DNA from: Thermoplasmata archaeon
GTDB lineage: Archaea > Thermoplasmatota > Thermoplasmata > Halarchaeoplasmatales > Halarchaeoplasmataceae
Direction: 5' to 3'
Assembly (NCBI GenBank): GCA_003552585.1
Contig: PUNK01000071.1
Location: 1-64,000 of the forward strand
Length of the DNA: 64,000 nucleotides
Made by a program: the position numbers and the translations under genes. Positions 49,418 to 60,460 of the stretch are shown here, piece after piece. How positions within the stretch are numbered: position 1 is the stretch's first letter; the number at the start of each line of letters is the position of its first letter. Under the pieces are notes generated by a model, which searched no databases, was not told the origin of the DNA, and was given only the letters and a program-made list of their open reading frames with translations.

Positions 49418-49529
49418 AAAAATTCTTTATTGAGGTATATATGGTAGTTCACTCCGTCGGAATAAGCCAATATATAAATTTCCAAATGAACACTTCCTTG
49501 ATATGAAAACCATATGCAGTAAACAACGT

Positions 49530-49604
49530 GGGCGCGTGGCCTAGCTCGGACATGGCGCTGGCCTTCTAAGCCAGACATCACGGGTTCGAATCCCGTCGCG
49601 TCCG
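49530..49604 (+). tRNA. tRNA-Arg(TCT)
   Basis: Acceptor GGGCGCG/CGCGTCC, anticodon loop CTTCTAA, T-arm ACGGG-TTCGAAT-CCCGT. Confidence 0.95.
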
Positions 49605-49761
49605 TCACATTATTTTTTCATAATTGAGGGATAGTTAGACAGCGTAAGCTTTCTGATGAGTCCGTTATATCATCTTAGATTATCTAGACCAATTATTTTA
49701 TATGGTGAAGATGTTAGTTTGATCATGGTATGTACAGTCCGACAACATACAGGATGATAGG

Positions 49762-50517: not shown

Positions 50518-50627
50518 CAGAATTAAAGAATACATTGGGCTAATATTTAGGGTGAATGTCTTATCCATTACTAAGTAATCCAAAAAGTCTAAAAAGGAAA
50601 GCACTTATGCTATCATCCTATCCCTTT

Positions 50628-50813
50628 GGGGGTATAGGGTAACTCGGCATCCTCACGGGCTCCAGTTACGAGGAATGATCGCCAATCGGGTTTGCTGACC
50701 GGTTTTCATCGGTGTGATGAATAACTGGAGCGGTGACACCGTGATTGGAAACGGTGGGTCGCTCCCTCCGTTGAAGAAACCCGTTGATCGGGGTTCAAAT
50801 CCCCGTGCCCCCA
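50628..50813 (+). tRNA. tRNA-Trp(CCA) with ~110-nt intron in the anticodon loop
   Basis: Acceptor GGGGGTA(50628-50634)/TGCCCCC(50806-50812), anticodon stem ACGGG(655-659)/CCCGT(780-784), CT-CCA loop (660-664), T-arm CGGGG-TTCAAAT-CCCCG. Confidence 0.92.
50675..50736 (+). ncRNA. Intron-encoded C/D box guide RNA targeting tRNA-Trp positions 34 and 39
   Basis: Degenerate box C ATGATCG (675-681), D' CTGA (695-698), C' GTGATGA (714-720), variant D GTGA (733-736); guides CTGGAGC and CGGGTTT pair with pre-tRNA, N+5 falls on C34 and C39. Confidence 0.75.
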
Positions 50814-50997
50814 TTTTTCTCCGAAAAATGTGTGCACTACACGGAAGGAAACCTTCCGCTCGCACACAAATTTTATCAAATTTGTGCACTACGTGGAAAT
50901 CGCAGATTTCCACTAGCCCACTCGAAAAGCTTCGCTTTCCTGCGGGTACCGAGTGTTCACGAGAAGTGAACCGAGGTTGAAGAGGAAGAATTCCTCT
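50812..50997. repeat. Run of about seven short hairpins downstream of tRNA-Trp
   Basis: CATTTTTC-tcc-GAAAAATG; CGGAAGG-aaa-CCTTCCG; CACAAATTT-tatc-AAATTTGTG; GTGGAAATC-gca-GATTTCCAC; CACTCG..CGAGTG; GTTCAC-gagaa-GTGAAC; AGAGGAA-gaa-TTCCTCT. Confidence 0.85.
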
Positions 50998-51000
50998 GGG

Positions 51001-51011: not shown

Positions 51012-51030
51012 ACTTATAAAATTCTCCAAA

Positions 51031-51078
51031 TCATAAGAAACCTTTAAGTTTTCTCAAGACGTATCTTTTTGGAAGATT
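51031..51078 (+). promoter_or_regulatory. 48-bp promoter/leader, identical copy at 57260-57307
   Basis: TCATAAGAAACCTTTAAGTTTTCTCAAGACGTATCTTTTTGGAAGATT, TATA-like TTTAAG 36 nt before ATG. Confidence 0.8.
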
Positions 51079-54000
51079 ATGGAAGCCGGGTATGTAAACG
51101 TCTCTTTCAAACCACCGCTTACAGGTAGAGATGAGGAGATAAGCAAGTTGATGTCCTTTTGGAAGCGTGCCCAAGAAGGTAAAGGCTCAACTGTTTTTAT
51201 ATCTGGTGAAGCTGGTATTGGTAAAACTCGTCTTGTAAATGAGTTGATTGACCGAGTTGACGAGGAGGTAAAAATAGTAAAAGCTTGGTGTCTAGCTGAT
51301 AATCTAGAACCACTGATGCCGTTCAAAGAGGGGTTTAGAGACGCAGAACTATCTCATATCATAGCCGAAAAACCGCCCCCCAAAGTCATTTCTACTTATC
51401 TGATAAACAAAGGTGGTTTGTTGATAGCGAAGGCAGAGCGAGATAAAGCCGAACTTGACTCAGATATATTCGCAACTATGCTAGATGCAGTAGGAAATTT
51501 TGTAAAAGATTCTTTGAGAATGATGGGAGAGGACGAAGGAAGTAATTTGAATGCGATCGGGTATGGAGAATACGATATTTTAATTCAAACTCTTGAGAAT
51601 CTATCACTTACCGCGGTGATAAAAGGTACAAAAGATGAATTTTTGATAGAAGATATGAAAAGAACCCTTCAGAACATCGGAAATCAATTTGATTATTGGG
51701 ACGGGGATATTGAAGCTACAGAAAAAGTGATACCGGATATAAGATGGTTTATAGATTCAGAAAAATATGATGGTACACATATAGTAGAGGACCCTAAGAT
51801 AAAACAGGAAAATCTTTTCGATAAAGTTCTTCTAGGCCTACAAAGAGTTTCAGAAGAAAAAATTGTTATCTTATTTTTAGACGACCTGCAGTGGGCAGAT
51901 CCAACGAGCTTGAATTTGCTCCATTATCTCTCTAGGAATACCAGAAACCATAGGATATTTATTGTTGGAACTTACCGTCCAGAGGATATTACCAAGTTCG
52001 ATGATAGTAAAGTTCATCCTTTAAAAACTACCATGCAAAATATGGGACGAGAAGAGTTGTTTCATGAGATGGATTTGAAACGTTTAAATCGATCGTCTGT
52101 AGAATCTTTTATGACCAAAACCTTGGAAAGTGCAGAGCTTGAAAGAAAATTCATAAGGAAAATTTACAAAGAAAGTGGGGGAAATCCATTTTTTCTGCTA
52201 GAAGTTCTTAAAATGCTGGCAATAGAAGGATATCTGGTTAAAGAGGGTAATAAATGGAAACCGAGTAAAGACCTGAAAGAGTTCGAAGTACCTTCTAAAA
52301 TATATGACATAATTGTCCGCCGGTTGGATAGGTTGATGGAAGAGCATAGAGAACTCCTTGAATGTGCGAGTGTGGTAGGTGAGGAATTCGAGAGCAGTAT
52401 TGTTGGCAGTATGACCGGATCTAACAGAATCAAGCTTTTGAAGAATTTAAACCATATCGAGAGAACCCACAACCTGATACGTTCTATAAAGAAGAGATAC
52501 ATATTTGATCACAGCAAAATCAGAGAAGTCTTGTACAACGGTATTAACGAGGAATTAAGACAAGAATATCACAAGATAGTTGCTGAAACCTATGAGGACT
52601 CAAAAAAGGATTTAGGGAATATCATTTACGATTTAGGAACACATTGGGAAAAAGGAGGGATACCTGATAAGGCTTTTAAGTACTATAAAAAATGTGCTAA
52701 AAAGGCTAAAGGGTCCTATGCTAATGACCTGGCCATAGAGTGCTATGATCGTTTATTGGACCTTATCCCATTATTAGAGTCCTGTGAAGATAGGGAGGAA
52801 ATAAAAATTGATTGTCTGACACAGAAAGGTGACTGTTTGAAAACCATTTGTGAGTGGGATCATGCTGAAGAATCATATAAAAAAGCTCTTCAAATGGCTG
52901 AAAAGATGAAAGATAGTACTAAAATAGCAGAATGTACGATCCTGATAGGAGACATTTGCAAATTAGAAGCTAAGTATAATGAGGCTTTAGACCTTTATTT
53001 TGAAGCTTGCCAGATTTATAAAGATATGGGTGACAAGCAGGGGTACTGTAGATCTTTAGGGAGGATCGGATCGGTATACACAAACATGGCTGAATACGAC
53101 AAATCTATGGTTTATTTAGAGGAAATGCAGCAGATAGCTGAAGAACTAAAAGATAATGGATTATTGAGTAGATTGTATGGGAATATAGGGAGTACCCATT
53201 ATGGGAGAGGAGAATTGAAAGAGGCTATGGAATATTTTAAGAAAAAATTAAAACTCAAAGAAGAACAAGGAGATTTGTTAGAAATAGGTTATACTTTAGT
53301 TAACTTGGCAAGTATATATGTGAGACTTAAAGACTATGAACATTCTAGGGAGGCCTGTAATAAAGCATTGGAGATAGTTGAAAAAACTGGAGATAAATTG
53401 ATGGAACAGAATGCACTAGGGAAGCTCGGTATCGCCTATACTGAAGAGGGAGAATACACTAAAGGATTAGAATATTATAAGAAAAAATTGTCTTTGTCTG
53501 AAAAAATGGGGGATAGACGAAGTATAGCCTATGTCGCAAATAACATCGGGGAACTATATAAGGAGAAAGGGGAGTACGACAAAGCACTCAGGTATTATCA
53601 GAAAGATGTTGATATTTCAAAAGATCTTGCCGATAAAAGAGGTTATGCAATAACGATAGGTAATATGGGCAACCTTTACAAATTAAAAAGTGATTTTCAT
53701 AAAGCCGAAGAATTATATGACGAAGCTCTCCATATCGCAAGAGAACAAGATACCAAAGACGTCTTGAGCTTTTTTCTATCCTGTAAAGCTGATCTGTACT
53801 TTCAAAAAGGTTTGATAGAAAGAGCTGGTGTCTTGAACAAAGATGCTCTAGAGATAGCTGAAAAGATCGATATGCAGCAAACAATTTTCTGTGCGAACTT
53901 ATTAAAAGCCAAGATATTGTCTAAAGAAAATAAAGAAAAAAGTATTCAGATACTAAAAAAGATGTTGGAAGCGAACAACAGTGCCCCAGAAGAAGCTAAA

Positions 54001-54132
54001 CTTGTTTATGAACTATACAAAATATCTGGTGAAGACGATCATAAAAAGAATGCCCTAGATTTTTATAAAAAGATATATGAAAAAAATCCTTCCACACGTT
54101 ATAAAGAAATTATAGAGGAGTTGACAGATTGA
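51079..54132 (+). CDS. Giant P-loop (STAND/MalT-like AAA) ATPase with TPR repeats, paralog 1
   Basis: Walker A GEAGIGKTRL, Walker B ILFLDDLQWAD, GTYRPEDI, C-terminal TPR array; 1017 aa. Confidence 0.88.
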   Translation: MEAGYVNVSFKPPLTGRDEEISKLMSFWKRAQEGKGSTVFISGEAGIGKTRLVNELIDRVDEEVKIVKAWCLADNLEPLMPFKEGFRDAELSHIIAEKPPPKVISTYLINKGGLLIAKAERDKAELDSDIFATMLDAVGNFVKDSLRMMGEDEGSNLNAIGYGEYDILIQTLENLSLTAVIKGTKDEFLIEDMKRTLQNIGNQFDYWDGDIEATEKVIPDIRWFIDSEKYDGTHIVEDPKIKQENLFDKVLLGLQRVSEEKIVILFLDDLQWADPTSLNLLHYLSRNTRNHRIFIVGTYRPEDITKFDDSKVHPLKTTMQNMGREELFHEMDLKRLNRSSVESFMTKTLESAELERKFIRKIYKESGGNPFFLLEVLKMLAIEGYLVKEGNKWKPSKDLKEFEVPSKIYDIIVRRLDRLMEEHRELLECASVVGEEFESSIVGSMTGSNRIKLLKNLNHIERTHNLIRSIKKRYIFDHSKIREVLYNGINEELRQEYHKIVAETYEDSKKDLGNIIYDLGTHWEKGGIPDKAFKYYKKCAKKAKGSYANDLAIECYDRLLDLIPLLESCEDREEIKIDCLTQKGDCLKTICEWDHAEESYKKALQMAEKMKDSTKIAECTILIGDICKLEAKYNEALDLYFEACQIYKDMGDKQGYCRSLGRIGSVYTNMAEYDKSMVYLEEMQQIAEELKDNGLLSRLYGNIGSTHYGRGELKEAMEYFKKKLKLKEEQGDLLEIGYTLVNLASIYVRLKDYEHSREACNKALEIVEKTGDKLMEQNALGKLGIAYTEEGEYTKGLEYYKKKLSLSEKMGDRRSIAYVANNIGELYKEKGEYDKALRYYQKDVDISKDLADKRGYAITIGNMGNLYKLKSDFHKAEELYDEALHIAREQDTKDVLSFFLSCKADLYFQKGLIERAGVLNKDALEIAEKIDMQQTIFCANLLKAKILSKENKEKSIQILKKMLEANNSAPEEAKLVYELYKISGEDDHKKNALDFYKKIYEKNPSTRYKEIIEELTD

Positions 54133-54204
54133 TGGTGAAAAACCAATTTCGTGAAAAGTTAAGAAAGTTTTAAATTCTTTAAAAACTTATGTGGCTTGAA
54201 CTTT

Positions 54205-57200
54205 ATGAAAGAAGGAGTATCATATACCTCCTTCCAGCCAGCGCTTACAGGAAGGGATAATGATATAAGCAAGTTGGAGTCTTTTTGGACACGTACTAAA
54301 GAGGGTAAAGGTTCAACCGTTTTTATATCTGGTGAAGCTGGCATTGGTAAAACGAGGTTGGTATCTGAGTTTATGGATATGGCTGAAGAGAGAGAGACCA
54401 TGATCATTAAAGGCTGGTGTCTATCAGAAAGTTTAGAACCCTTATTGCCCCTACGAAATGGATTTCTTGATGCTGGCATTCCCCAGCTTATATCTGAAGA
54501 TCCTCCTCCAAAAGTTATATCAACCTACCTAATTAAAAAAGGAGGAATATTGGTGGCTAAATCTGAAAGGGAAGATACCGACCTTGATTCAGATATTTTT
54601 GCAACTATGTTGAGCGCAGTGAGCAACTTTGTCACCGATTCCCTTAAAATGATGAAAGAGCAGGGGACAGGAGGGTTAAACACCATCGGTTACGGAAAAC
54701 ATAATATATTGATACATTCGAGAGGTGATCTATCATTAGCTACGGTTATCGAAGGGTCTAATTATGAATTTTTAATAGACGATATGAATAACACTCTTGA
54801 TGAGATCGGAAATACTTTCGATGATTGGGATGGCGATATGAACTCAGCTGAAATAGTTAAACCTAAAATATCTTGGTTCATAGATTCAAGAAAGTATGAA
54901 GGTAGATATCTAGTGGATGACCCCAAGATAAAGCAGGAAAATTTGTTCTATAAAGTGCTGCTCGGGTTGCGTAGACTTTCAGACCGAGAGCCAATCATTC
55001 TTTTCATAGATGATCTTCAGTGGGCTGATCCTACTACTTTGAAATTAATACATTATCTGTCTAGGAATACAAAAAATAACAGCATCCTTATCTTAGGAAC
55101 TTATCGACCTGAAGATATAGTTGCAAGTGATGATGGTAAAACCCACAACCTTAAAACCACCATGCAGAACATGAGCAGGGAGAACCTTTACGAGGAAATA
55201 AAGCTCATGAGACTGGACAAAAAGTTTGTAAAGAAATTAATCGAAAGTACTTTAAGAAAAATCGATATTGGTCATGGGCTGGTAAAAAAGATATATGGGG
55301 AATGTGAGGGTAATCCTCTCTTTCTTCTTGAAATCATAGAGATGATGGTTGCAGAGGGATATTTAACTAAAAAAAACGATTTCTGGGAAGAACGGAAAGA
55401 TATTGATGAAATCAATATACCATCTAAGGTATATGATGTCGTGATGAGAAGGTTAGATCGATTGATAAGCGATCAAAGAAATTTGCTGGAATGTGCGAGT
55501 GTGATCGGGAAGGAGTTCGAGAGTGAAATAATCGGTGAAGTGACGGGCATAAATCGTATAAGAATTCTAAAAGATCTTAACGAAATCGAGAGGACTCATA
55601 ATTTAATCCATTCTATCAAAAAGAAATATCGATTCGACCACAACAAGTTCCGTGAAGTCCTATACAATAGCATCAATGAAGAATTACGAGAAGAATATCA
55701 TCTTATGATTGCAGAAAGTTATGAAAAACTGTATCCAAACAATATCGATAAAGTAGAACCTCTGTTAGCTCATCATTATTACAAAGCAGAGGATGAAAGA
55801 GCAATAGAATATCTCCTGAGCACAGGTGATAAGGCTAAAGAAAGATATGCAAATGATGAAGCTTTGGTCCTATATGATAACGCAATATCACTTGCAAAAG
55901 AAAAAGATATAGATGTGCCCACTAAAGCACTTGAAGGACTTGGAGATGTTTATAATGTTATAGGGGATTATGATAAAGCTTTGGAGAGTTATGAAGAAGC
56001 TCTAGACATTGTAAAAGATAAAGAAAAGGCAGTCGTATACGGAAAGATAGCAAATATCTTTGAAAAAATTGGAGGTTACGAAGATTCTCTAGAATATGCT
56101 GAAAAGGGGATATCTCTGGTAGATCCAGATGACATAGAGATGTGTAGTTTGTTGAACGTCAAGGGATGGGGTTTGTTAAGGAAGGGAGAATATGATGAGG
56201 CGATAAAAGTATTCAAGAAGAGTGAAGAAAAAGCAGATATGCTTGACCGGAAGTTAGATAAGGGACAAGCTCAGCATAATCTAGGAACTATTTATCTTCG
56301 AAAGGGAGAGTTTGATGAGGGAAAGGAATATCTAGAAAAGGCTATCAAGCTTAGGGATGATTGTGAAGATATTAATGGACTTGGAGTTTCCTACAACAAT
56401 ATGGCTCTCATCTACTGGAATAAGGGGGAACTAGAGCATGCACTTCAATATTTTACACAATGTATTGATATCTTTGAAAATATTGGTCATAAGTTTGGTG
56501 TGGCCACGGCTTTGAACAACATAGGTGTGATAAAATGGATCAAAGGAGAACTCGATAGTGCACTAGATCATTATAAAAGAAGCCGTTGCATCCAGGAGGA
56601 GATCGGAGATAAACTGGGTATCGCTACATCACTTCACAATATAGCAGCGATATACCGGGATAAAGGTGATCTAGATACATCACTCAATTTCTTCAAAAAG
56701 AGTCTGAGTAATGTTGAGGAGATCGGAGATAAATGGGGGATAGCAAAGTCTCTAAGTAATGTTGGAGTAGTATACAGTTTAATGGGCGAGTTGGATAGAT
56801 CTATTGATTGCCTTGAACATAGCCTTCAAATTCGTGAGGAGATGGGTGATAAAACAGGTATAATTGAAAGCCTGTGTGGGATTACGGAAACGTATATTAA
56901 AAAAGAAGAGATCATGAAAGCTGAAGAAAACGCTAGAAGAGCATTACAAATCGCTATTGAAGTCGGAGGAAAGAATGAGATGACGATGAGCCATAAATTA
57001 CTAGGTATGGTATACAGGGAGCAGGAAAGGTGGGATGAGTCTAGAGCAGAATTTGAAAAAGGTATAGAAATGTTGGATGGCAAATTGGATAAAAAAGATC
57101 TTTCCATAGCTTATTATGAATATGGTTTGATGTGGAAGGAGATGGGTGAAAAAAAGAAGGCAAAAGAATACCTAGAAAAATCCCTTGAGATCTTCGAGGA

Positions 57201-57255
57201 TATAGGGATGAAACTAATGGTAAAGGAGGCGAAAGAGGAGTTAAAGTCTATTTAA
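54205..57255 (+). CDS. Giant P-loop ATPase-TPR protein, paralog 2 (start revised from 54196 TTG to 54205 ATG)
   Basis: Walker A GEAGIGKTRL, ILFIDDLQWAD, TPRs; ATG 54205 gives the same 36-nt TATA-to-ATG spacing as its paralogs. Confidence 0.88.
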   Translation: MKEGVSYTSFQPALTGRDNDISKLESFWTRTKEGKGSTVFISGEAGIGKTRLVSEFMDMAEERETMIIKGWCLSESLEPLLPLRNGFLDAGIPQLISEDPPPKVISTYLIKKGGILVAKSEREDTDLDSDIFATMLSAVSNFVTDSLKMMKEQGTGGLNTIGYGKHNILIHSRGDLSLATVIEGSNYEFLIDDMNNTLDEIGNTFDDWDGDMNSAEIVKPKISWFIDSRKYEGRYLVDDPKIKQENLFYKVLLGLRRLSDREPIILFIDDLQWADPTTLKLIHYLSRNTKNNSILILGTYRPEDIVASDDGKTHNLKTTMQNMSRENLYEEIKLMRLDKKFVKKLIESTLRKIDIGHGLVKKIYGECEGNPLFLLEIIEMMVAEGYLTKKNDFWEERKDIDEINIPSKVYDVVMRRLDRLISDQRNLLECASVIGKEFESEIIGEVTGINRIRILKDLNEIERTHNLIHSIKKKYRFDHNKFREVLYNSINEELREEYHLMIAESYEKLYPNNIDKVEPLLAHHYYKAEDERAIEYLLSTGDKAKERYANDEALVLYDNAISLAKEKDIDVPTKALEGLGDVYNVIGDYDKALESYEEALDIVKDKEKAVVYGKIANIFEKIGGYEDSLEYAEKGISLVDPDDIEMCSLLNVKGWGLLRKGEYDEAIKVFKKSEEKADMLDRKLDKGQAQHNLGTIYLRKGEFDEGKEYLEKAIKLRDDCEDINGLGVSYNNMALIYWNKGELEHALQYFTQCIDIFENIGHKFGVATALNNIGVIKWIKGELDSALDHYKRSRCIQEEIGDKLGIATSLHNIAAIYRDKGDLDTSLNFFKKSLSNVEEIGDKWGIAKSLSNVGVVYSLMGELDRSIDCLEHSLQIREEMGDKTGIIESLCGITETYIKKEEIMKAEENARRALQIAIEVGGKNEMTMSHKLLGMVYREQERWDESRAEFEKGIEMLDGKLDKKDLSIAYYEYGLMWKEMGEKKKAKEYLEKSLEIFEDIGMKLMVKEAKEELKSI

Positions 57256-57259
57256 CAAG

Positions 57260-57307
57260 TCATAAGAAACCTTTAAGTTTTCTCAAGACGTATCTTTTTG
57301 GAAGATT
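57260..57307 (+). promoter_or_regulatory. Second copy of the 48-bp promoter/leader
   Basis: Identical to 51031-51078. Confidence 0.8.
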
Positions 57308-60300
57308 ATGGAAGCCGGGTATGCAAACATCTCTTTCAAACCACCGCTTACAGGTAGAGATGAGGAGATAAGCAAGTTGATGTCCTTTTGGGAGCGTGCC
57401 AAAGAAGGTAAAGGCTCAACCGTTTTTATATCTGGTGAAGCGGGTGTCGGTAAAACTCGTCTGGTAAACGAGCTGATTGAAAGGCTCGACAAAGATGTAA
57501 AAATTATCAAATGTTGGTGCCTATCGGAGAGCTTAGAACCACTGATGCCGTTCAAACAAGGCTTTAGAAAGGAGGACTTATCACATATAATATCTGAAAA
57601 ACCGCCTCCCAAAGTCATCTCAACATACCTGATTGACAAGGGTGGACTGCTGGTGACTAAAGCAGAAAGATCGGATACGGACCTAGATCCTGATATTTTC
57701 GCATCAATGCTCGATGCAGTAGGTAATTTTATCAAAGACTCTCTCTCCATGATGGGAGAAATGCAGGGAGGAGAACTGAATACCATCGGATATGGAAAAC
57801 ACAGTATATTGATTCAATCTAATGAATGTCTGTCGCTAGCTTCAGTGATAGAAGGAGAAAGCAGCGAGTTTTTGATAGATGACATGAGAAAAACACTGGA
57901 AAATATCGGAGACAGGTTCGCTTCCTGGAACGGTGATATGGAAAGTTCAGAAAAAGTCAGACCCTATATAGAATGGTTCATCGATTCGAGAAAGTATAGT
58001 GGCAGATATTTGGCTAAAGACCCTAAATTAAAACAGGAAAATCTATTTGATAAAGTACTCCTGGGACTCCAAAGAATCTCATCTGAAAGTCCCGTTGTAT
58101 TATTTTTAGACGATTTACAGTGGGCAGAATCAACCACTTTGAAACTACTTCACTATCTTTCTAGAAATACTAAAAACGATAGAATATTGATCATAGGTAA
58201 TTACCGTCCAGAGGATGTTATCAAATCTAAGGAGGGAGATCCTCATCCTTTTAAAACTATCATGCAGAACATGAGTAGAGAACATCTATTTCAAGCACTC
58301 CAACTTCAGCGGTTGGATGAAAACTCAGTAAAAAATCTTATGATTCAGACTTTAGAAGATGAAGAAATCTCTGAGGACCTTATAGACGAGATGTACACAG
58401 GGAGTGATGGGAATCCCTTTTTTCTTTTAGAAGTGATGAAAATGCTTGTCTACGAGGGACATCTGATAGATCAAGAAGGAGTTTTGAAGCTTAAAGAGGA
58501 TATCCAAGAGATAAAGATACCTTCAAAAGTATATGATTTGGTGGTGAGAAGGCTAGATCGATTAGTTGATGAGCAAAAAGATATTTTAGAATGTGCTAGT
58601 GTAGTTGGGGAGGAGTTTGAAAGCCGGGTTATTGGTGAAATTATCGGTATTAGCAGGATGAAACTCTTGAAAAATCTCAATGAGATCCAGCGTCTACACA
58701 AATTGATAATATCTATAGAGAAGAAGTATCGATTTGAGCACCGGCAGATAAGAGAGGTATTGTATTTTGATATTAACGATGAATTGAGGGAAGAATATCA
58801 TCGTTTGGTCGCTGAAAGTTATGAGTTGATCTATAAGGGAAAAATGGAAGAGTATTCGAAACATATCGCATATCACTTCTTCAAAGCTAAAGAAGAAAGG
58901 GCTGTAAATTATCTTTTAAAATTAGGTGGAAAAGCAAAAGATGAATATGCAAACGAGGAGGCCCTAAGATTTTACAAAGATGCTTTGTCTCTGGCTGTTC
59001 ACAAGAGTGATTTGAAAGAAATTCATGATGGACTAGGTGAAGTATTCAATATTATTGGAAAGTATGAAAAATCCTTAGAACATTATGAAAATGCTTTGGA
59101 TAATGTTGAAAACGAATTGGATAGTTCTAGGTTGCATGGCAAAATAGCAGAGGTTCTGAACAATCAAGGTGAATATAAAAAAGCTCTTGAACAGATCGAG
59201 ATCGGTATTGAATTGTGTGAGGAGAACAATAATTTACGATGTAAACTCTTTAATATAAATGGATGGGTTTTTATGTTGCAGGGTTTATACGGTCGATCCA
59301 TCCAAATTTTCAACGAAGAAATCAAATTAGCTAGAGAATTAGATGATACAAAAAGTATTGGTCGAGCATTACACGACCTTGGAACTGTATTGATTCGAAG
59401 AGGAGATTACGGAGAAGCTGAAGAACTACTGAAAGAATCGGTAGGATTTAGAGAAGAATGCGAGGATATAGAAGGCCTCGGAGATACATTTAATAGCATA
59501 GGAGTCGTACATAAAAACAAAGGAGACATGGATCGAGCTTTATATTATTACAATAAAAGTATGGAAATAGAGAGGGAGATAGGTAGCAAGAACGGAATCG
59601 CAAGATCTCTTAACAATATAGCCACTATTTACTGGTATAAGGGAGAACTTAATAAAGCATTAGATAATTATGAAAAATGTCTTAAAATAGTAGAGGGGAC
59701 TGGGAACAAAGGGGGTATTGCTTTGGCATTGAGTAATATAGGTAACATTTACGCTGATAAAGGGGAAAGAGAAACTGCCCTGACTTATTATGAAGAAAGT
59801 ATGAAGATAAGAGAGTACACTGGAGATCAGCAAGGTATAGCAATATCACTCAACAATATTGGAAATATTTACATAGATCTATACGATCTCGATAAAGCAT
59901 TAGAGTATCATAACCGGAGTTTAGAGATTGAAAGTGAGATAGGAGATAAAGCTGGAATCGCTTATTCTTTGAATAGTATAGCACTCATTCATCAATATAA
60001 AGGAGATATCTCTGAGGCCATAGATCACTATGAAAGAAGTCTCGAAAAGGCTACAAAAGTCGGAGAAAGTACGATATCAGTTTACAATCTCTGTGGATTA
60101 GCAGAGTTATGCCTTAAAAACGATATTATTGATAAAGCTATGGAATACGCAGAGAAAGCCCTTCAAATATCTTTAGACACTGATGGGGAATCAGAGGAGG
60201 GGACATGTTATCGTATTTTGGGAATGGTGTTTGGAAAGTTGGGAACAAAAGAAAAGGCGATAGAACATTTTGAAAAGTCTATAAATGTTTTTGAAATGAT

Positions 60301-60460
60301 AGGAGATAAACGGGGATCATCAAGGACTCATTACGAGTACGGTATGTTTTTAAGGGGAGAGGAGGGTGAAGAATTCCTTAGAAAGGCATTGGATATGTTT
60401 GAAAGGATGAATCTAGTTTTTTGGGTTCAAAAAGCAAGAAATGAATTAAAAAAGGGATGA
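57308..60460 (+). CDS. Giant P-loop ATPase-TPR protein, paralog 3
   Basis: Walker A GEAGVGKTRL, VLFLDDLQWAE, TPRs with GDKxGIAxSLNNIGxIY pattern; 1050 aa. Confidence 0.88.
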   Translation: MEAGYANISFKPPLTGRDEEISKLMSFWERAKEGKGSTVFISGEAGVGKTRLVNELIERLDKDVKIIKCWCLSESLEPLMPFKQGFRKEDLSHIISEKPPPKVISTYLIDKGGLLVTKAERSDTDLDPDIFASMLDAVGNFIKDSLSMMGEMQGGELNTIGYGKHSILIQSNECLSLASVIEGESSEFLIDDMRKTLENIGDRFASWNGDMESSEKVRPYIEWFIDSRKYSGRYLAKDPKLKQENLFDKVLLGLQRISSESPVVLFLDDLQWAESTTLKLLHYLSRNTKNDRILIIGNYRPEDVIKSKEGDPHPFKTIMQNMSREHLFQALQLQRLDENSVKNLMIQTLEDEEISEDLIDEMYTGSDGNPFFLLEVMKMLVYEGHLIDQEGVLKLKEDIQEIKIPSKVYDLVVRRLDRLVDEQKDILECASVVGEEFESRVIGEIIGISRMKLLKNLNEIQRLHKLIISIEKKYRFEHRQIREVLYFDINDELREEYHRLVAESYELIYKGKMEEYSKHIAYHFFKAKEERAVNYLLKLGGKAKDEYANEEALRFYKDALSLAVHKSDLKEIHDGLGEVFNIIGKYEKSLEHYENALDNVENELDSSRLHGKIAEVLNNQGEYKKALEQIEIGIELCEENNNLRCKLFNINGWVFMLQGLYGRSIQIFNEEIKLARELDDTKSIGRALHDLGTVLIRRGDYGEAEELLKESVGFREECEDIEGLGDTFNSIGVVHKNKGDMDRALYYYNKSMEIEREIGSKNGIARSLNNIATIYWYKGELNKALDNYEKCLKIVEGTGNKGGIALALSNIGNIYADKGERETALTYYEESMKIREYTGDQQGIAISLNNIGNIYIDLYDLDKALEYHNRSLEIESEIGDKAGIAYSLNSIALIHQYKGDISEAIDHYERSLEKATKVGESTISVYNLCGLAELCLKNDIIDKAMEYAEKALQISLDTDGESEEGTCYRILGMVFGKLGTKEKAIEHFEKSINVFEMIGDKRGSSRTHYEYGMFLRGEEGEEFLRKALDMFERMNLVFWVQKARNELKKG

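Follow-up and report, generated by a model that had tools for sequence, protein, structure and literature searches.

A roadblock/longin-type domain embedded in tandem STAND ATPases of a Thermoplasmata archaeon and its association with Ras-like GTPases

Introduction

Which role is played by a conserved domain placed between the Walker A and Walker B motifs of three adjacent ATPase genes? The question is raised by a stretch of 64,000 nucleotides (the window) from contig C14 of a salt-lake Thermoplasmata metagenome-assembled genome (91% complete), in which three consecutive open reading frames (ORFs), p1 to p3, lie in tandem on the same (+) strand. An earlier note on this DNA had described their products as NTPases of the STAND type (signal transduction ATPases with numerous domains) with tetratricopeptide repeat (TPR) sensors and an insert of roadblock/longin-like look, and had suggested an accessory locus. 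The description of the proteins is borne out below, an accessory or defence locus is not. We consider it probable that p1-p3 are STAND switches whose insert works with Ras-like GTPases, and which are thus GTPase- or receptor-controlled.

Both STAND/NLR switches and Ras-like GTPases have a central place in signalling. If the proposal is true, two switch families not known to be wired together become linked. STAND-TPR switches and the coupling of roadblock proteins to GTPases are already known; new is the roadblock-type domain embedded in a STAND protein. In the literature searched, no publication was found that combines "STAND NTPase" with "roadblock".

Three tandem paralogs with a conserved insert

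The genes, motifs and inserts are located as follows (coordinates in the window, strand, feature, basis).

51079..54132, +, p1, STAND ATPase-TPR protein with predicted roadblock/longin-type insert, 1017 aa (ORF, Pfam, model, fold match)
51205..51228, +, Walker A motif (P-loop) GEAGIGKT of p1, residues 43-50 (sequence)
51370..51774, +, insert of p1, predicted roadblock/longin-type domain, residues 98-232 (model, fold, spacing comparison)
51874..51900, +, Walker B motif FLDDLQWAD of p1, residues 266-274 (sequence, model)
54205..57255, +, p2, second paralog, 1016 aa from ATG (ORF, Pfam, paralog comparison)
54502..54903, +, insert of p2 (homology to the p1 domain)
57308..60460, +, p3, third paralog, 1050 aa (ORF, Pfam, paralog comparison)
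57602..58003, +, insert of p3 (homology to the p1 domain)

All three proteins carry the P-loop GEAG[IV]GKTRL and the motifs F[LI]DDLQWA[DE] and G[TN]YRPED. The ATG of p2 aligns with the starts of p1 and p3; an upstream TTG at 54196 is a possible alternative. Pfam assigns to each protein an AAA_16 domain that is split by the insert and followed by TPRs, with further matches to TPR_MalT, NB-ARC (p2) and ORC/Cdc6 models, and the matches of TPR_12 and TPR_MalT above cut-off mark a C-terminal TPR sensor. The ATPase begins at residue ~14. In agreement with the earlier note, no effector domain (HTH, nuclease, death-fold or similar) was found by the Pfam scan at either end of p1-p3. STANDs without a fused effector are also present among the relatives, and in p1-p3 the insert itself may serve as effector.

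Identity between the paralogs amounts to 62-68% in the insert and 54-80% in ATPase plus insert, with 22-40% in the TPRs. Judged from the alignments, this is the pattern of a common core and a putative docking domain combined with diversified sensors.

The insert is an extra domain

The spacing between Walker A and Walker B was compared in 84 STAND proteins from the window genome and from related and sister genomes. It spans 210-231 residues in the 71 proteins with the domain, i.e., ~130 residues are added, and 97-148 residues with nothing in between in the 13 insert-less ones. Insert-less STANDs of the window genome itself are encoded on contigs C33 (two), C36 and C25, the last of which also encodes an insert-bearing one. 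Because relatives in the same genome without the insert have the shorter spacing, the insert is a true insertion and an extra domain. An ordinary AAA subdomain, an option that the earlier note had itself raised, is ruled out by the absence of the insert from related STANDs, and no Pfam family covers it with significance. The second such option, a single-copy housekeeping gene, is ruled out as well, since the family is multi-copy and lineage-expanded.

In the ATPase tree four insert types fall into separate clades, and the domain tree needs four changes between STAND-borne and free forms. In approximately unbiased tests for independent insertions, a single origin remained compatible with the trees (p 0.185; 0.09 and 0.33). 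The C36 protein and its relatives (loci L065 and L171-L179) form a distinct STAND-TPR group; these proteins have ~800-850 aa, lack both insert and HTH and show a Gly/Leu-rich "MGLVGIG"-like segment in the same region, that of the initiator-specific motif (ISM).

Fold of the insert

The AlphaFold model of the insert, built with 62 homologous sequences, reached a pLDDT of 89.6 and a pTM of 0.85 and has the predicted topology beta-beta-alpha-beta-beta-beta-alpha-alpha. Top matches of this model among PDB structures in Foldseek were Ragulator LAMTOR2/p14, MglB, Mon1-Ccz1, TRAPP, AP sigma and an Asgard roadblock protein (E 2e-5 to 3e-4, probability 1.00), and hhalign aligned the insert with the lineage's own Robl_LC7 proteins in full register (85-87%). 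Sequence profiles run against PDB chains found neither roadblock nor STAND relatives; these were found by fold comparison alone. The roadblock match of one relative reached an E-value of 1.9e-4, yet stayed under the curated cut-off. Assignment of the insert, as modelled, to a divergent domain of the roadblock/longin superfamily is well supported at the level of fold class, in line with the look that the earlier note had ascribed to it.

Predicted fold and topology are thus shared with MglB, roadblock/LC7 proteins, Ragulator LAMTOR2/3, TRAPP and the Mon1-Ccz1 longins. In contrast to roadblock/LC7 proteins, the insert has no significant sequence-family match and, instead of being a small free protein, forms part of an ATPase or is attached to surface proteins.

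Position of the insert in the STAND switch

In the model of p1 residues 1-560, the ISM helix (80-88), the insert (102-226), helix H2 (239-260) and the Walker B strand (262-268) follow each other, i.e., the normal STAND order is kept and the insert lies between ISM helix and H2. Among solved structures, the ATPase model most resembles PH0952 of Pyrococcus horikoshii (PDB 6MFV) and next CED-4, with MalT and Apaf-1 further down. Walker A/B-type STAND motifs are conserved in 52 sequences, and the order of helical domain (HD), winged-helix domain (WHD) and arm is as in STANDs. On this basis p1-p3 are predicted to be STAND-type NTPases with a TPR sensor. The AAA+ ATPases RuvBL1/RuvBL2, whose Walker motifs A and B are separated by an additional OB-fold domain, also appear among the fold matches of the p1 model; unlike p1-p3, they are not STANDs.

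With PH0952 and MalT the paralogs share the order of nucleotide-binding domain, HD, WHD, arm and TPRs, the Walker motifs and the ISM helix. PH0952 and MalT have a DNA-binding effector and a short ISMb helix, whereas p1-p3 lack the former and have the ~130-residue roadblock/longin-type domain in place of the latter. In PH0952 at rest, ISMb sits wedged in the TPR sensor, and ISMb mutations of MalT activate the protein (PMC6468293). Since PH0952 has ISMb at the equivalent place, the insert presumably occupies the autoinhibitory contact point, as judged from the predicted geometry and the published PH0952 structure.

Distribution and other contexts of the domain

With the p1 domain as query, relatives were found in 46 out of 61 genomes of the class and in 18 out of 145 genomes sampled over the Thermoplasmatota, with up to 25 copies. 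The domain is not restricted to STANDs. Large Ig/PKD-type surface proteins have it as C-terminal tail, directly after their transmembrane helix, as in the C42 surface protein of the window genome (signal peptide, helix 1203-1221, domain 1227-1352). It further occurs in small membrane proteins and, in repeated copies, in soluble coiled-coil (scaffold) proteins.

Scans of larger collections relied on a closer, STAND-type sequence set, as the alignment of the domain from all contexts had no stretch that was conserved enough. Matches in the GTDB collection bear only the labels Thermoplasmata, Thermoplasmatota, Methanomassiliicoccales, DHVE2, Aciduliprofundum, Proteinoplasmatales, Haladaptatiplasma, Saliniplasma or Euryarchaeota. 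Viral contigs scanned with the same patterns gave no insert match, and a phage-borne domain was rejected on this basis. The domain is a Thermoplasmatota family that is spread over the phylum and has no Pfam model. It offers a handle on surface sensing in this phylum and on the roles of the many Ras-like GTPases outside Asgard archaea.

Among the soluble coiled-coil/CARDB-like proteins with the domain, those of L068 (4291-10806) and L117 (926-5671) contain three and two copies, respectively, in a repeat unit of about 460-505 aa; a Ras-like gene is situated 105 bp from the L117 protein gene. In UBA147 (L066-L067, L129, L131), about eight insert-bearing STAND genes are arranged in tandem with a Ras-like gene at the end of the array. 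In 10 of 62 STAND-seeded loci (e.g., L113 2492-5299), a secreted GLUG-motif protein of ~936 aa is encoded close to STAND-insert genes.

Association with Ras-like GTPases

Within the class set, domain and Ras-like GTPases occur together in 45 genomes and are jointly missing from 13, with the domain alone in one and Ras alone in two. Copy numbers correlate with a rho of 0.89, which amounts to 0.87 given genome size and 0.92 on 21 family means. Over the phylum sample, 17 genomes contain both, one the domain only, none the GTPase only and 127 neither. P-values for this co-occurrence treat genomes as independent and therefore overstate it. Canonical roadblock proteins are less tightly tied, as they are also present in genomes without Ras-like GTPases.

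Linkage was assessed by profile scans of domain-gene loci, with insert-less STANDs as control. In the first set, 7 of the 111 genes directly adjoining domain genes encode Ras-like GTPases, confirmed by Pfam (0.3-0.8 expected). These GTPases comprise ~270-300 residues, with a longer ORF as called in L137; one of the seven adjoins a scaffold protein and not a STAND, and two stem from related DHVE2 genomes. The second set of loci yielded 3 of 40 (0.1-0.3 expected), all on the same strand at 29-68 bp. Taken together, 10 of 151 neighbours of domain genes are Ras-like, several of them on the same strand at a distance of 5-113 bp, versus 0 of 64 neighbours of insert-less STANDs (Fisher p 0.027). In other classes, five domain matches have a Ras gene no more than 1 kb away, where 0.7 would be expected. 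The link of the domain to Ras is well supported.

A conserved cluster of the window's family consists of genes for a Ras-like GTPase, a PQQ-type beta-propeller protein with N-terminal hydrophobic stretch and a giant surface protein whose tail is the domain, accompanied by a divergently oriented second Ras gene.

L153 2423-10959 (contig C42 of the window genome) and L158, surface-protein/Ras cluster, with a DUF835 gene behind it in L153

This cluster has the appearance of a separate system for transmembrane signalling.

Coupling of a small GTPase to a roadblock protein by gene proximity is established for MglA/MglB, and actinobacterial conservons combine the GTPase CvnD and the roadblock protein CvnB with the histidine kinase CvnA and CvnC in repeated loci (PMC4316618). 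The insert family shares with the roadblock family the gene coupling to and the co-occurrence with Ras-like GTPases, and it resembles the conservons in that a signalling module is combined with a roadblock protein and a small GTPase. In contrast to conservons, the signalling component is either a STAND ATPase or one of the large surface proteins, the lineage is another one, and no CvnA/CvnC-like genes were seen.

Proposed mechanism and alternative explanations

The insert is probably a docking platform for Ras-like GTPases or for the roadblock-type domains of surface-protein partners. In the most likely mechanism, the resting switch would be held as in PH0952/MalT, with TPR arm and sensor clamped onto the tip of the ATPase domain and the insert in the place of the clamped ISMb. 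This contact would change once the insert binds a Ras-like GTPase in one of its nucleotide states or pairs with a domain of roadblock type (of another STAND or of a surface-protein tail). ADP/ATP exchange and assembly would thereby be gated, while the divergent TPRs would provide each paralog with its own input. Both the physical contact of insert and GTPase and the nucleotide state that binds are part of the proposal. Control could run in either direction, with the GTPase acting on the STAND or the STAND serving as GTPase-activating protein or guanine nucleotide exchange factor; output and gating are inferred. A roadblock-type domain at the site where TPR-STANDs are held shut would provide a concrete route by which a small GTPase controls an NLR-like switch. 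It is tempting to speculate, albeit tentatively and at somewhat less than even chance, that surface proteins, scaffolds and STANDs of Thermoplasmatota form a receptor network whose shared roadblock-type docking domain is read by the expanded Ras-like GTPases, and that in STANDs this domain replaces the autoinhibitory ISMb, with the GTPase directly setting the switch. Such a network would couple, in prokaryotes, NLRs with Ras, both of them great families of signalling NTPases in eukaryotes.

Several observations weigh against a function with Ras-like GTPases. The co-occurrence is confounded by phylogeny, most domain genes do not adjoin a Ras gene, and none is found beside the window triplet, the Ras genes found in this genome being located on contigs C42, C10 and C35. 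In an earlier adjacency test, superseded by the profile scans above, a Ras gene lay no more than 10 kb away from 2 of 93 STAND inserts among the matches listed (E to ~4e-33), with 3.05 expected. The fold match is only moderate (TM about 0.5-0.6), and Pfam roadblock and longin matches are insignificant (Robl_LC7 0.13, longin models ~0.055) apart from that of the one relative mentioned above. Furthermore, some roadblock/longin domains do not regulate GTPases (PMC10933270).

The same source reports that known roadblock domains dimerise, and the insert could accordingly pair solely with its own fold, STAND with STAND or STAND with tails and scaffolds, while Ras acts elsewhere in the network. Cytosolic-tail and soluble forms of the domain do coexist in the same genomes, and the window genome has both the C42 tail protein and STANDs. 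Homotypic pairing alone, however, leaves the Ras genes adjoining STAND-insert genes and the near-perfect co-occurrence unexplained, and we regard it as unlikely. Still less probable is a transcription regulator of the MalT/PH0952 type that has lost its DNA-binding part and whose insert does no more than passively enlarge the ISM region. It is the N-terminal DNA-binding domain of PH0952, the closest solved relative, and the N-terminal winged-helix-like region of both insert-less C33 STANDs that speak for such a descent; but the insert is conserved at the level given above where the sensors are not, the domain is found elsewhere as a unit of its own, and insert-bearing STANDs go with Ras genes, which insert-less ones do not.

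A further alternative is an antiviral STAND of the Avs/NLR-like kind in an accessory locus. STAND-TPR architecture, tandem duplication with diverging sensors and tRNA genes close by would fit. Membership in Avs defence was rejected, though, due to the lack of effector and of defence genes in the neighbourhood, PADLOC matches to generic TPR models only and the negative viral contigs; together with the phylum-wide presence of the domain in surface proteins and scaffolds, this makes an antiviral function very improbable. A STAND switch working with Ras-like GTPases remains our preferred explanation.

Other features of the window

Further features are listed as above.

49529-49606, tRNA-Arg (tRNA scan)
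50627-50814, +, tRNA-Trp(CCA), intron-bearing (missed by default tRNA scan and Rfam scan)
51027..51078, +, 5' flank of p1, 52 bp up to the ATG, with the TATA-like CCTTTAAGTTTT inside (near-identical to the p3 flank)
57256..57307, +, 5' flank of p3, 52 bp, the entire gap between p2 and p3 (98% identity with the p1 flank)

The near-identical 5' tract of p1 and p3 runs from -52 to ~+180 and so includes ~180 bp of coding sequence. Such a pattern points to gene conversion or to a partial copying event in the recent past. The 52-bp flanks are a putative shared promoter, their similarity likely representing a conversion tract.

Gyrase, tRNA, SDR and aldehyde:ferredoxin oxidoreductase genes are among the neighbours in the window. 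Of the features that the earlier note had placed alongside the triplet, tRNA genes are present (tRNA-Arg and tRNA-Trp), while no clear cases of decayed genes were seen. The region between the tRNA-Trp gene and p1 (50815-51000) is rich in hairpins, and a second copy of it was not found in the genome. The intron of tRNA-Trp(CCA) has a length of 113 nt, interrupts the anticodon loop at 37/38 and contains box C/D-like motifs.

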